Of a stretch of DNA of 64,000 nt, positions 56,423 to 62,745 are shown one piece after another. The stretch's first letter is position 1. Each line of letters opens with the position of its first letter. This DNA comes from Hyphomicrobiales bacterium (GTDB lineage Bacteria > Pseudomonadota > Alphaproteobacteria > Rhizobiales > Xanthobacteraceae), in contig JAFKKH010000019.1 of the NCBI GenBank assembly GCA_017305665.1, forward strand, positions 1 to 64,000, given 5' to 3'. The notes beneath the pieces were generated by a model that was given only the letters and a program-made list of their open reading frames with translations, had not been told where the DNA came from and did no database searches. The translations under genes were made by a program, and so were the position numbers.

Positions 56423-56803
56423 ATGAAAAAAGATCCGTTCCGACTGACGCCGTATCAGGTGCAATGGCTGCTGATCGTTGGTTTCCTCAGCGTCGGCTAC
56501 GCGCTGTACCTTCGCTATCTGGCGGTCGAACTGTCCACGGTATCGCTGGCCTGCGACGGTGGTCTGCAAACCATGCTGTGCAAAAGCCGCAGTCTCGCGA
56601 CCTACCTGTTTCGCAACTCGGTATTCGGCACCGCGGCTCTGGTCATCGCGGTACTGAACATCATGCGGCCGTCGATCGTGCTTGTGACCGCGGGTCTGAT
56701 CGCTGCCGGCTTCGGCATCGTACTCTACAATGTCGCGCTGTCCGGCCTCGCGATCGGCCTGCTCATCCTTGGATTTGCACGGCCCGCGCCCGCCACAGCG
56801 TGA
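56423..56803 (+). CDS. Small membrane protein of unknown function
   Basis: 126 residues with about four membrane segments (15-34, 62-78, 82-98, 103-120). A loop holds two Cys (SLACDGGLQTMLCKSRS), spaced as in some thiol-redox membrane proteins, though no CxxC is present. The 3' end overlaps convergent ndvC by 41 bp. Position beside the glucan genes is the only hint of role. Confidence 0.7.
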   Translation: MKKDPFRLTPYQVQWLLIVGFLSVGYALYLRYLAVELSTVSLACDGGLQTMLCKSRSLATYLFRNSVFGTAALVIAVLNIMRPSIVLVTAGLIAAGFGIVLYNVALSGLAIGLLILGFARPAPATA

Positions 56804-58433
56804 CGCCGAGCATCGCGTAGACGATGCAGGTCCACAGCGACTCCCAGTTGTTCGGACCCTCGTTGAATCCGACATAAATGGCTGCGATCACCAGAAGGCC
56901 GGCGAATACCGACTCGGCAATGGGGCGGACGCCGACAAGCGGACGATTGAGCCAGGCCAGCGCCCAGCATGGCACGACGGCCATCGTCAGCGCGGCAAAC
57001 GGAAAGTCGCGATAGCGGGCATCGAAAACGAGACCGAGCGCCGTCTCCGTACCGATCAATGTCGTGACGAGCAGCGTCAATCCCAACATCATGGTCAGAA
57101 TTGAGCCGGTGCGGCCGGGACGCGGCCCGATCAATTCGAGGAAGGTCGGCAACGCCCTTCCGGCCATCAGGGCATTCGCACCCAACAGTGGCGATATGAT
57201 TCCAGCCGCCAACAACAGGCTCCAGCGCAGCGAGTTACCCCATCCGTAACTCTCGGAACACAGCTTGTCCGCGGCGACACCGAGCAGGATTCCGGCCGCC
57301 GTCGCTGACACCGCAACGGCGATCCAGGACATCAGTCGCGGCGTCCACGGTCGACGCCGCAACGTTAACAAGGCGACCGCGAAGATAAGGACGCACAATC
57401 CCATCCCCGCGCCCATCTGGATTTTCCAGCGCGGAAAATTGCTGATGGGCACCCCGGCGGGATATTTCAGTTTACGTTGGGTGGCGTCGATCAAACCCCA
57501 GTTGCCGCCGACCGTCCCTTCGAGCTGACGCTTCCACGGCTGGTCGTAGGCTTCGATCAGATTGACGCGAAAATGCTCGCGCTTCGCCATGTCGAGGATT
57601 TCAGATACCACGCGCGCCTGATTGGTGCGCGACGGGAGCGCGCCTTCGCGCATGCGTCCCGCGCTCGGCCATCCGGTTTCGCCGATCAGGATTTCCTTGC
57701 CGGGAAATACCGCGGCAACCTGCTTTCGGATGGCATCGACGTGCGCGGCAGCGAAACGCGCCCGGATCGGGAAGTCCTCCCAATACGGCAGAATGTGAAT
57801 CGTGACGAAATCAACGGCATCGTAGACTTCGCGGTTGCGCAGCCAATATTCCCAGACGTCGGCATAAGTCACCGGCACCTTCACCTGCGATTTCACCAGC
57901 CGGATATTGGCGGCCAGATCCGAGGCGGTCATCTCGCCGCGCAGCAGGACTTCGTTGCCGACCACGAGCGCCGTTATGACGTCTGGATACTCCTTGGCGA
58001 GGCCGACAGCGACATTGATCTCGGCGAGGTTCTTCAGGCGGTTGTTACCAAGCCAAATGCCCTGAATGACCTTGAGCCCAACCTTCGCTGCGAGCCCCGG
58101 CAGCCGATCGAGGCCATTTTGGACGGAATAGGTGCGGACGCATTTCGATATCTTGGCCAGTTGCGCGAGATCTTCGGCGATCTGCTCGGGCGGGATCATC
58201 GTTGTCGCGATCAGCGGCGACTGGTCGTCCCGGAACGGTGCATAGGACACGCATTCGAGCTTCGCCGCGGGGTCGATCGGCGCGCGCACAAGCTCGATCG
58301 GCGTGGCCAGCCACCACCACACCGCTGCGATCAGGCCCAGGGAAACGACGAGAAGCGCCAGGGGCGTACGAAAGGAAATCGGCTCCGTCCTCCGTGAGAA
58401 ACGTCGATTACCCGGTCGTAACGCATCTGCCAA
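56763..58433 (-). CDS. ndvC: Beta-glucan synthesis protein NdvC, GH17-like
   Basis: 556 residues. One membrane anchor (about 22-43), then a glycoside-hydrolase-17-like domain (60-325): CVSYAPFRDDQSPL, VVGNEVLLRGE (acid/base Glu) and ILIGETGWPSAGR (nucleophile Glu). The C-terminal 220 residues contain about seven membrane segments. In Bradyrhizobium NdvC is needed for the beta-1,6 linkages of cyclic beta-(1,3),(1,6)-glucan, with the GH17 domain probably acting as a transglucosylase. Divergent from ndvD and ndvB. Confidence 0.88.
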   Translation of the reverse strand: MADALRPGNRRFSRRTEPISFRTPLALLVVSLGLIAAVWWWLATPIELVRAPIDPAAKLECVSYAPFRDDQSPLIATTMIPPEQIAEDLAQLAKISKCVRTYSVQNGLDRLPGLAAKVGLKVIQGIWLGNNRLKNLAEINVAVGLAKEYPDVITALVVGNEVLLRGEMTASDLAANIRLVKSQVKVPVTYADVWEYWLRNREVYDAVDFVTIHILPYWEDFPIRARFAAAHVDAIRKQVAAVFPGKEILIGETGWPSAGRMREGALPSRTNQARVVSEILDMAKREHFRVNLIEAYDQPWKRQLEGTVGGNWGLIDATQRKLKYPAGVPISNFPRWKIQMGAGMGLCVLIFAVALLTLRRRPWTPRLMSWIAVAVSATAAGILLGVAADKLCSESYGWGNSLRWSLLLAAGIISPLLGANALMAGRALPTFLELIGPRPGRTGSILTMMLGLTLLVTTLIGTETALGLVFDARYRDFPFAALTMAVVPCWALAWLNRPLVGVRPIAESVFAGLLVIAAIYVGFNEGPNNWESLWTCIVYAMLGVTLWRARAVQIQG

Positions 58434-59449: not shown

Positions 59450-62119
59450 ATGCGCGCTGTCGTCGCCGTCTTGTTGTTTGTGACCGCTGCACACGCCGCT
59501 CTCTGGGGACTTCTTCAGGAGAAGCAGGAGGCGCCCGACTTCAAGGGCGTCCTGGCGAGCGTATCCTACGCGCCGTTCGAAGGAACGGCGAATCCGGACG
59601 TCGACAACATCCCGACCGCCGAGAAAATTCGCTCGGATATGAAGGCGCTGGTGCCGTTGACCCGCGCCATCCGCCTGTATTCCTCGACCGGCGGTGTGGA
59701 ACTGGTGCCTCCGATCGCCAACGAATTCGGCCTCAAGGTCATGGTCGGCGCCTGGATCGACAAGCACACCGAGCGCAACGAGCGCGAGTTGAGGGCCGCG
59801 ATCGATCTCGCCAAGCATAACAGCAACGTCAACGGCGTCGTCGTCGGAAACGAGACGATTTACCGCGGCGATCAGAAGATCGACGATCTCATCAAACTTA
59901 TTCAGCGTGTGAAGAGCTCTGTGAATGTGCCTGTAACAACAGGCGAAATCTGGAACATTTGGCTCGAACACCCCGAACTGGCGTCTTCGGTCGATTTTAT
60001 CGCAGCGCATATCCTGCCCTACTGGGAAGGCTTTTCCAGCAAACAAGCCGTCGATCAGGCCCTTATCATCTATCAGAAGCTGCGCGACGCATTTCCCGGC
60101 AAGCGGATCCTGATCGCCGAATTCGGCTGGCCGAGCGCCGGATACAACCTCAAGAACGCCGACCCCGGTCCGTTCCAGCAAGCCGTCACGCTTCGCAACT
60201 TTGTCACCAAGGCCGAGTCGATCGGCATGGAATACAACATCGTCGAAGCCATCGATCAGCCCTGGAAGTTCTTCGAAGGCGGCGTCGGGCCCTACTGGGG
60301 CATTCTCAACGCGGATCGCGAGCCGAAATTCTCATGGACCGGTCCGGTCGTCGATCAGGATTACTGGAAACTCGCCGGCATTGCCCTGCTGATCGGCATC
60401 CTGCTGTCGCTACCCATCCTGCGGCTGGTCCAGCCGACCGTGATGCAGGCCGGGCTACTTTCAATCGCGGCCAACGGCGTCGGCGCCTGGGTCGCGACCG
60501 TGTTCTCCTACTGGACCACCCATTACTTTGTGTTTGGCTCGGCCTTCGCTCTCACCCTCGGCCTGATTCTGCTGGTGCCCCTGATCCTGATCGCGATGGC
60601 GCGGATCGAGGAGATTGCCGCCGTCGCCTTCGGCCGCGCGCCCCAGCGATTGATCACGAAGAACGTCGCAGCGGCCGCACAGGCGGCAACCAGCACGCCG
60701 CTGCCCAAGGTCTCAATTCACGTGCCGGCCTATTTCGAGCCGCCGGAAATGCTCAAACAGACGCTCGATGCGGTCGCAGGCCTCGACTACCCGAATTTCG
60801 AATGCGTCGTGATCATCAACAACACGCCGGATCCGGCATTCTGGCAGCCGATTCAGGATCACTGCCGCGCGCTGGGCGAACGTTTCAAGTTCATCAACGC
60901 CGAGAAGGTTCAGGGCTTCAAGGCCGGTGCGCTGCGCATCGCCATGGAGCGCACCGCGGCCGATGCAGAGATCATCGGCATCATCGATGCCGACTATGTC
61001 GTCGAGCCGAACTGGCTCAAAGATCTGGTGCCCGCGTTCAATGATCCGCGTGTCGGCCTCGTACAGGCACCGCAGGATCACCGCGACGGTGACCGCTCGC
61101 TGATGCACTATGTGATGAACGGCGAATATGCCGGCTTCTTCGACATCGGCATGGTCCAGCGCAACGAGGCCAACGCCATCATCGTTCATGGCACCATGTG
61201 CCTGATCCGTCGCGCGGCGATGGACATGGCCGGCGGCTGGGCCGGCGACACGATCTGCGAGGACACCGACCTCGGCCTCGCCATCATCGAGCAAGGCTGG
61301 GTCACGCACTATACCAACACGCGCTATGGCTTCGGCCTGCTGCCCGACACCTACGAGGCCTTCAAGAAGCAGCGTCACCGCTGGGCCTATGGCGGCTTCC
61401 AGATCGTCAAGAAGCACTGGCGCCGTTTCCTACCCGGCGCGAGCCGGCTATCGCAGGACCAGAAGCGCGAGTTCACACTGGGCTGGCTCAACTGGCTCGG
61501 CGCCGAGAGTCTCGGCGTTCTGGTGGCGATCCTGAACCTGATCTGGGTGCCGATCGTCGCCTTCGCCGACATCGCGATCCCCGACAGGATCCTGACGTTG
61601 CCGATCATCGCGGCGTTTCTGGTCTCGCTGATCCACTTCCTGACGATGTACCGGCTCCGCGTGCCCGTCAAAACCGCACAGATGCTGGGCGCCATGGTGG
61701 CTGCCATGTCGGTTCAATGGACCGTATCGCGAGCAGTCGCGCAGGGGCTGATCACGGAACATCTCGCCTTCGCGCGCACCTCCAAGGGAGGGTTATCGCG
61801 GATGTCGATCGAGTTCCAGGCGTTCTGGGAGGCCGTGATCGGCGTTCTGCTGCTGGTCGGCGCCGTCGTGCTGGTCGCCTCCAACCGGTACAAGGAGGTC
61901 CGCGAGATCTACATCTTCGCGGGCGTGCTGGTGCTGGAAAGCCTGCCGTTCCTGTCGGCGGTCGCGATCGCCATTCTGGAAAACTCGCGCATCAACCAGT
62001 TCTCGTTCTGGCGCCACGCCCGCATTCGCAGCGCCGAACTGATCGGACTTCGGCCGGCACCGATGCCGACGAACGTGCAGCCGCCGGTCCGGACCGAGAT
62101 TCATCACGAGGCGCGCTGA
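59450..62119 (+). CDS. ndvB: Cyclic beta-(1,3),(1,6)-glucan synthase NdvB, GH17-GT2 fusion
   Basis: 889 residues. After a signal anchor, a GH17-like domain (about 30-285) has VVGNETIYRGD and ILIAEFGWPSAGY with the two catalytic Glu. Membrane segments follow (about 305-385), then a family-2 glycosyltransferase: VSIHVPAYFEPPEMLKQTLD, IGIIDADYVVEP (DxD, about 512), CEDTDLGLAI (about 603) and KQRHRWAYGGF (QxxRW, about 640), and further membrane segments. It polymerises UDP-glucose to beta-1,3 chains and exports them. In Bradyrhizobium it matters for osmotic adaptation and effective nodulation. Confidence 0.93.
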   Translation: MRAVVAVLLFVTAAHAALWGLLQEKQEAPDFKGVLASVSYAPFEGTANPDVDNIPTAEKIRSDMKALVPLTRAIRLYSSTGGVELVPPIANEFGLKVMVGAWIDKHTERNERELRAAIDLAKHNSNVNGVVVGNETIYRGDQKIDDLIKLIQRVKSSVNVPVTTGEIWNIWLEHPELASSVDFIAAHILPYWEGFSSKQAVDQALIIYQKLRDAFPGKRILIAEFGWPSAGYNLKNADPGPFQQAVTLRNFVTKAESIGMEYNIVEAIDQPWKFFEGGVGPYWGILNADREPKFSWTGPVVDQDYWKLAGIALLIGILLSLPILRLVQPTVMQAGLLSIAANGVGAWVATVFSYWTTHYFVFGSAFALTLGLILLVPLILIAMARIEEIAAVAFGRAPQRLITKNVAAAAQAATSTPLPKVSIHVPAYFEPPEMLKQTLDAVAGLDYPNFECVVIINNTPDPAFWQPIQDHCRALGERFKFINAEKVQGFKAGALRIAMERTAADAEIIGIIDADYVVEPNWLKDLVPAFNDPRVGLVQAPQDHRDGDRSLMHYVMNGEYAGFFDIGMVQRNEANAIIVHGTMCLIRRAAMDMAGGWAGDTICEDTDLGLAIIEQGWVTHYTNTRYGFGLLPDTYEAFKKQRHRWAYGGFQIVKKHWRRFLPGASRLSQDQKREFTLGWLNWLGAESLGVLVAILNLIWVPIVAFADIAIPDRILTLPIIAAFLVSLIHFLTMYRLRVPVKTAQMLGAMVAAMSVQWTVSRAVAQGLITEHLAFARTSKGGLSRMSIEFQAFWEAVIGVLLLVGAVVLVASNRYKEVREIYIFAGVLVLESLPFLSAVAIAILENSRINQFSFWRHARIRSAELIGLRPAPMPTNVQPPVRTEIHHEAR

Positions 62120-62271: not shown

Positions 62272-62347
62272 GAGCGCGTAGCTCAGGCGGTAGAGCACGT
62301 GACTTTTAATCATGGGGTCGAGGGTTCGAGTCCCTCCGCGCTCACCA
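62272..62347 (+). tRNA. tRNA-Lys (UUU)
   Basis: 76 nt: acceptor GAGCGCG pairing with CGCGCTC, D-arm GCTCAGGCGGTAGAGC, anticodon stem CGTGA/TCATG around loop CTTTTAA (anticodon TTT), T-loop GGTTCGAGTCC and encoded 3' CCA. Confidence 0.97.
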
Positions 62348-62427: not shown

Positions 62428-62526
62428 CCGACCCATGTGATTTCCCTCACAGCTCAATCATGCCGAATCCATTCTGCTCAACATCACGGTGGGAATGGTC
62501 TCGCCGACCTTTGAATGGAGATCACC

Positions 62527-62706
62527 ATGAACAAGCAGGAACTCGGCATCGCCGAACTCACGTCGGATGAGGTAGAGGCCGTTAGCGGCGCAATGACGCC
62601 TTTGGATGCCGTCTGGAGAGGGGTCATCCGTGGGTTTGTCGAGGCCGGTGGCGCGGTCGTGTGCAACCCGGGCGCTCACGGCTATGACTGTGACTTCTAT
62701 CCGTAG
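62527..62706 (+). CDS. Double-glycine-leader peptide, candidate bacteriocin or signal precursor
   Basis: 59 residues from ATG 62527 (an in-frame ATG at 62515 is possible; GGAG lies between them). The first 22 residues, with ELTSDEVEAVSGA at the end, match the double-glycine leader rule: Gly at -2, Ala at -1, and hydrophobic residues at -4 (Val19), -7 (Val16) and -12 (Leu11). The predicted 37-residue core has a GxxxG motif (Gly32, Gly36) and two Cys (46 and 55) able to form a disulfide. A strong terminator follows. No peptidase-transporter or immunity gene is in the window. Function inferred from the leader only. Confidence 0.7.
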   Translation: MNKQELGIAELTSDEVEAVSGAMTPLDAVWRGVIRGFVEAGGAVVCNPGAHGYDCDFYP

Positions 62707-62715
62707 CCGCATCTT

Positions 62716-62745
62716 AAGGCCCCCGGCTGCGGTCGGCGGGCCTTT
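62716..62745 (+). terminator. Rho-independent terminator of the peptide gene
   Basis: AAGGCCC (62716-62722) pairs with GGGCCTT (62738-62744), enclosing further CCGGC/GTCGG pairing, and is followed by TTTCTCTCTC. It begins 10 bp after the peptide stop codon. Confidence 0.75.

Follow-up and report, generated by a model that had tools for sequence, protein, structure and literature searches.

A 59-codon gene near the end of the window (the whole 64-kb stretch of DNA that was analysed) is best read as encoding a small secreted peptide, one member of a dispersed, co-regulated set of double-glycine peptides that would share a single exporter. The sequence evidence gives this reading a probability of roughly 0.78. 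Its parts differ in firmness: export of the peptide is well supported by its sequence, the pairing with the exporter is likely, and the biological role outside the cell is, above all the rest, conjectural. Double-glycine peptides are usually sought beside their exporter. Leader and exporter are of a familiar type, and no description of a dispersed, box-marked regulon such as this was found in the open-access literature searched; some members may be listed by Dirix et al. (2004), a genome-wide screen of Gram-negative bacteria cited in PMC3140520. If the reading is true, 15 or more secreted peptides, all different, are released together under a single regulator, and the function of such peptides gains a direct genetic handle (one exporter, one regulator). 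Box and leader together find double-glycine peptides even when these are scattered and, like the window peptide, unmodelled by Pfam or NCBIfam. The features of the locus, in window coordinates, are as follows.

62436..62451, no strand assigned: CRP-type palindromic box TGTGATTTCCCTCACA, a perfect TGTGA-N6-TCACA
62487..62506, + strand: 5′-leader RNA hairpin CGGTGGGA-ATGG-TCTCGCCG (by folding; z -0.34, insignificant alone)
62517..62520, + strand: Shine-Dalgarno GGAG (from the sequence)
62527..62706, + strand: peptide open reading frame, 59 codons plus stop (from the sequence)
62527..62592, + strand: 22-codon double-glycine (GA) leader (sequence and leader regex)
62593..62703, + strand: 37-codon core peptide with two Cys and a GFVEAGG motif (translation; homologous cores in the seven-peptide alignment)
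62704..62706, + strand: stop codon TAG (from the sequence)
62716..62744, + strand: terminator-like hairpin (by folding; -22.7 kcal/mol, z -2.2 to -3.2)

The product consists of the leader MNKQELGIAELTSDEVEAVSGA and the core MTPLDAVWRGVIRGFVEAGGAVVCNPGAHGYDCDFYP, with the GA cut between them. The leader carries L at -12, E at -8, V at -7, V at -4, G at -2 and A at -1, and thus has the hydrophobic residues at -12, -7 and -4 and the GG/GA pair at -2/-1 that define double-glycine leaders. An earlier note on this DNA, made from the sequence alone, had described 59 codons with a 22-residue leader obeying this rule and two cysteines in a 37-residue core; the reading frame, the residues and the coordinates are all as it described. 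The ATG at 62527 is preferred over an in-frame ATG at 62515 because GGAG (62517-62520) precedes it, 6 nt upstream. A strict leader regex, which also required an upstream ATG and a core of 20-80 aa, occurs once in the 64-kb window and in none of 40 Markov-1 surrogates. The peptide belongs to no family in Pfam or NCBIfam, and no bacteriocin model of either collection matches it. Nor is it of the NHLP type, the leader having 22 residues and no NCBIfam match.

The earlier note had taken the peptide for an orphan, stand-alone product, a view that no longer holds: its own genome (G000; 5.03 Mb in 47 contigs) encodes at least 15 leader peptides, this one included, whose cores differ widely, most of these peptides lying behind the same CRP-type box. 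Judged by its formyltransferase gene, G000 is close to Bradyrhizobium and Rhodopseudomonas. The set comprises the window peptide and those of L170, L171, L172 (two, divergent), L173, L264 (two), L265 (two), L266 (two), L267, L268 and L290. It was assembled with family and leader models, by reading fetched stretches and, for L290, from the box; L290 is also a weak leader-model match (E 0.84), and leader-model matches above E 0.1 were taken as chance except where the stretches were read. The search for same-genome peptides with the same leader and variable cores, which the note had proposed, is therefore positive, the relatives having a conserved leader and a variable core. One recurrent core type (MKW or MKT ... 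DVIDARGG ...) is common to leader peptides of three genera and is seen at L137, L152, L266, L271, L273, L275, L279 and L280.

The box at 62436-62451, absent from the earlier note, is centred 83 nt upstream of the peptide-gene ATG. It is the only perfect TGTGA-N6-TCACA in the 64-kb window, and TGTGATTTCCCTCACA is one of 11 perfect sites in the 5.03-Mb genome, where the box pattern is enriched as a whole (71 sites against 17 for a reversed control). When a box is counted only if centred 65-95 nt before the ATG, 10/15 own-genome leader peptides have one at no more than one mismatch and 12/15 at no more than two; the remaining three are L268 (1 mismatch, 109 nt) and the second genes of the L265 and L266 pairs. 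The null set was made of 226 Shine-Dalgarno-preceded ATGs opening ORFs of at least 35 aa in 178 kb (the window, L099, L100 and L124-L127). Only two of these have a box at one mismatch or less, both being leader peptides of the same family, which leaves 0/224 others; at two mismatches or less the figure is 6/226, a raw count in which leader peptides are not separated. Leaving out the box-led L290, the own-genome count of 9/14 compares with 2/226 in the null (p = 2e-11).

Other genomes give a similar picture, in counts that treat orthologues separately and are therefore not independent: on a first list of leader peptides, 33/54 have the box at one mismatch or less and 40/54 at two or less; on a second list of leader ORFs the figures are 7/19 and 10/19, and pooled they come to 40/73 and 50/73. 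Many peptides lacking a box are second genes of tandem pairs. In eleven of the 14 first-list misses a further leader-like ORF lies no more than 400 nt upstream; the remaining three are L138 and the orthologous L146 and L153. Outside these counts stand L127 and L133 (no in-frame ATG near the leader), L144, L154, two leader ORFs in L224 and L225, and duplicates of loci that were fetched twice. G061, a genome of another genus, has TGTGC as the first half-site in four of its nine first-list peptides and no box in two.

The same box also precedes genes other than leader peptides. Of twenty further sites that were read, taken from the first 50 of the 71, one revealed the leader peptide of L290, and several lie before genes whose products have Sec-like N-termini by eye. 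Because such non-leader genes also follow boxes, the box is taken to be that of a broader CRP-type regulon. Its motif and its fixed distance upstream are those of a CRP-type site, binding being putative, and CRP-type control of the peptide gene by a putative regulator is likely. Two side observations concern the boxes themselves. Boxes of the same type stand before several genes with Sec-like N-termini (by eye) at L283-L291 and L302, suggesting a broader envelope or secretion regulon. At L172:1450-1700, two different leader peptides diverge around one shared box.

That an exporter would be encoded elsewhere had been proposed in the earlier note, and a search of G000 for C39 transporters with PF03412 bears this out. 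It finds two C39-type transporters, one of which, together with its HlyD gene, lies on another contig than the peptide.

L099 8232-9476: HlyD gene, preceding the C39 exporter gene
L099 9434-11638 (contig C3): C39 ABC exporter with C39, ABC membrane and ATPase domains

The C3 exporter retains the Cys, His and Asp residues, so that the genome does contain a C39-peptidase ABC transporter gene of the kind the note had asked to look for. Six residues before the Cys, the Gln of the other C39 domains read is replaced by Ala, a substitution that could weaken cleavage. Ala-for-Gln is common to the exporters of G000, G002, G003 and G061 (L099:9434-11638 and its orthologues in L003, L004 and L212), that is, to four genomes of two genera. 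The best match of the G000 exporter is NHLM_micro_ABC1, far under the cut-off (453 bits, where 853 are required). The 19.5-kb stretch read around the exporter holds no leader peptide. The second C39-like transporter (contig C36, L100) was set aside as RTX-type, since its C39 match is weak and no catalytic Cys is seen by eye; an RTX-type repeat protein, also recognised by eye, is encoded near it. A near-box upstream of hlyD, TGTGTCGCAAGTCACA, is not claimed as a site: it falls inside a coding region, and one such match is roughly the chance expectation for 20 kb.

Orthologues of the exporter, 94-96% identical, are found in the genus mates G002 and G003, and the other six genus mates give no exporter match at E ≤ 1e-120. 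At E ≤ 0.1 the leader model matches 12 times in G000, 12 in G002 and 11 in G003 (all three exporter-bearing genomes of the genus), numbers inflated by the model itself, 15 of whose 25 rows come from these genomes (6, 6 and 3, respectively). In the exporter-less G001 and G004-G008 the matches number 0, 0, 1, 0, 0 and 0, the G002 and G004 assemblies being 89% complete; the single G005 match has a core shortened by eye relative to its relatives. Looser leader matches, up to E 3, occur in all genomes of the genus. G061, which lies outside the leader model, has the same exporter subtype and 10 leader matches at E ≤ 0.1. Its exporter is apparently split over two contigs, and seven leader ORFs lie on the 5.8-kb contig that carries the C39 domain.

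Searched with the single sequence of the window peptide, eight genus mates give nothing at E ≤ 0.01, and no close homologue turns up in the genome_contigs, plasmid, phage and viral-contig collections at the limits used. The 391 genomes of the family yield one homologue, L013, weak but real; the weaker matches L014-L018 were discarded, as no leader is found there by regex. A profile of two rows (the own genome and G350) gives seven matches at E ≤ 2e-5 in five genomes, the two profile genomes included. At E ≤ 0.1 it matches 21 of the 391 family genomes, those at E ≥ 0.017 being taken as chance without individual inspection. The seven aligned peptides have the leader in common, as well as a core built around G...GF..E.GG; four columns of the alignment are invariant, and the paired Cys are not kept by the homologues. 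Homologues of the window core are found in another genus of the same family, alone or in tandem pairs.

Among the 265 genomes of that genus (g24, to which G350 belongs), 21 match at E ≤ 0.01. Reading the loci confirms a leader in 20 of them; the match in G374 was rejected as a leader peptide, there being no leader at the locus. Two more genomes (G536, G442) and probably a third (G399) have the same core type, and the rest are leader matches with other cores. The G350 homologue has an in-frame stop between ATG and leader, and in that of G442 the leader is preceded by no in-frame start codon (ATG, GTG or TTG); both genomes, which have no strong C39 exporter, also hold intact-looking leader genes. 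Degenerate or shortened leader peptides are seen at L127:9619-9800, L133:1500-1700 and L269:1480-1610, in three genomes with no strong C39 exporter.

Co-occurrence with an exporter is no more than suggestive in g24, the C39 scan taking in 52 genomes. Of the 21 leader-positive genomes 18 have a strong C39 match (E ≤ 1e-30), against 9 of 16 others drawn from those with no peptide match (p = 0.05). The three positives with no strong C39 match are G374 (the false leader match), G350 and G442. Within the 16 comparison genomes, leader matches at E ≤ 0.1 occur in four of the nine with a strong C39 match and in none of the seven others; five g24 genomes with a strong C39 match have no leader match at that limit. 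The three g24 exporters scanned (G410, G354, G348) all pass the NHLM_micro_ABC1 cut-off and are of a different subtype from that of G000. Ten exporter regions were read: boxed leader peptides lie within about 5 kb of the exporter in four (G348, G195, G354, G375), leaders with no box in two (G531, G410), and no leader peptides in four (G424, G003, G002, G487).

The transcript to which the peptide gene belongs appears short. The 3′ hairpin begins 9 nt past the stop codon, and a terminator-like hairpin also folds 3′ of the G195 homologue. A clean rho-independent terminator, as the earlier note put it, is nonetheless generous: the hairpin after the stop is there, but its tail is made of pyrimidines (TCTCTC) with no clean U run, and a terminator scan of the + strand does not list 62716-62744. 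On the 5′ side, a hairpin similar to that at 62487..62506, with the same ATGG loop, lies upstream of the G354 and G375 homologues and was not seen by eye upstream of those of G195 and G536.

Upstream of the peptide gene are a GT2-type glycosyltransferase gene and a tRNA-Lys gene, which ends at 62347, 88 bp before the box; downstream is a formyltransferase-like gene. The same three genes, for glycosyltransferase, tRNA-Lys and formyltransferase, lie side by side in a Rhodopseudomonas MAG (L077), where the last two are about 65 bp apart and enclose no peptide; because the gene order is the same there, the peptide gene can be regarded as an extra piece relative to L077. The tRNA-linked unit proposed in the earlier note looks incidental: ARAGORN finds no tRNA in any of the 10 stretches (1.6-3.7 kb each) holding the other 14 own-genome peptides, nor is there one in the four tested stretches with full-length homologues (L124-L127). 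tRNA linkage is not a feature of the leader-peptide family. The idea of integration at a tRNA was dropped, since L077 alone has the same order with no peptide and none of the other peptides read lies at a tRNA gene.

The leader, the box, the peptide family and the exporter gene, all shown by sequence, can be assembled into a mechanism. A CRP-family regulator would bind the box and start a short transcript ending at the 3′ hairpin, with a 5′ leader of about 40-45 nt if the geometry is that of class II. The HlyD/C39-ABC pair encoded on contig C3 would bind the leader, cut after Gly-Ala and export the core of 37 residues, in which one disulfide may form once it is outside. The other leader peptides would pass through this exporter too, so that one regulatory input would release a mixture of unrelated small peptides. 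A broader generalisation, which we hold tentatively at a little below even odds, is that of a cassette system made of a box, a leader, an exchangeable core and often a terminator-like hairpin. Such cassettes would be scattered over the genome under one CRP-type regulator and one shared C39 machine. Between species, their cores would be gained, exchanged and lost, and would tend to decay in genomes that lack the exporter.

Several known systems resemble parts of this arrangement. Peptides of the microcin V type are double-glycine peptides exported by peptidase-containing ABC transporters. Class II microcins of this type share with the present set the leader rule, the C39 ABC and HlyD exporter and the short core; here, by contrast, the gene is clustered neither with the exporter nor with a recognised immunity gene, one genome holds at least 15 peptides, a CRP-type box is shared, and no curated family model is reached. 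The prochlorosins of marine picocyanobacteria are lanthipeptides with a shared modifying enzyme. They too combine many precursors and one leader type with variable cores, but no such enzyme is recognised here.

A further parallel, likened by description, is offered by EbfG1-4 of the cyanobacterium Synechococcus elongatus, a group of small proteins with a GG motif that are secreted efficiently only when the peptidase transporter PteB has its Cys (PMC4997328). The EbfG genes are adjacent in that account (PMC4997328), whereas those of the present alphaproteobacterium are dispersed, most leading genes having their own box. Among alphaproteobacteria, the Cdz system of Caulobacter crescentus also exports small proteins through a type I secretion system, but its two glycine-zipper proteins come from one cluster with its own immunity gene, and these proteins reportedly have ends that look like RTX secretion signals (PMC5380434). 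NHLP/N11P precursors and their three-gene NHLM exporters, as outlined in PMC3140520, are paralleled by those relatives in the other genus that adjoin exporters passing the NHLM_micro_ABC1 cut-off (3/3 scanned); they differ in that the leader here is short and bacteriocin-type, no NHLP model is matched and the G000 exporter is under the cut-off. Finally, CRP control of bacteriocin export in Pectobacterium also ties a bacteriocin-related system to CRP (PMC10253576); that system concerns carocin and apparently has no dispersed peptide set.

What the peptides do once outside is the part on which readings diverge. The one to which we lean slightly is a community or surface role (adhesion, biofilm, signalling) rather than killing, because no immunity-type gene is recognised beside the peptide and core types recur across genera. 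In its specific form, a secreted community or biofilm factor comparable to the EbfG peptides, it is quite plausible by analogy, if somewhat short of an even chance: several small GG-motif proteins are secreted there via a peptidase transporter for biofilm formation, as reported (PMC4997328), and several genes with Sec-like N-termini by eye are preceded here by a box of this type.

A microcin-like or class II bacteriocin whose core kills close relatives, with self-protection by a distant gene or by absence of the target, is possible but the more doubtful reading. The double-glycine leader and the C39/HlyD pair do reproduce the layout of the microcin V type, and three of eight sister peptides scanned have Bacteriocin_IIc matches (E 0.0003-0.004), all below the curated cut-off. 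Against this, the peptide itself matches no bacteriocin model, its neighbours are the tRNA-Lys and formyltransferase-like genes and small ORFs in which no immunity-type gene was recognised by eye, a separate immunity would be needed for each of at least 15 different peptides, and the recurrence of core types across genera fits poorly with killing.

That the gene encodes a modified-peptide (RiPP) precursor whose tailoring enzymes are encoded at another place in the genome is unlikely. The leader-plus-core layout, the cysteines of the core and the NHLM-type exporters that are likely partners of relatives in the other genus would suit it, but no modification enzyme is recognised beside the peptide or, by eye and with model scans of three of them, among the ORFs around the G000 exporter. 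As for a chance reading frame with a leader by coincidence, which the missing Pfam or NCBIfam family and the empty searches of the eight genus mates and of the contig, plasmid, phage and viral collections would allow, it is already very unlikely given homologues with related leader and core, and the position of the box upstream of leader peptides and the surrogate test count against it as well.

Two further arrangements were noticed in passing. In L229 (2590-2864 and 10420-10694) and L230 (2584-2859 and 10356-10631), a leader-peptide pair is repeated, nearly identical and in inverted orientation, on either side of NHLM-type exporter genes, with a box before the first gene of each pair. In the window itself, the gene at 56763-58433 (-) matches no NCBIfam family at E ≤ 1e-150; it diverges from the GT2-type glycosyltransferase gene at 59450-62119 (+), which also has a sub-threshold GH17 match, and by eye the two products have similar N-terminal halves.
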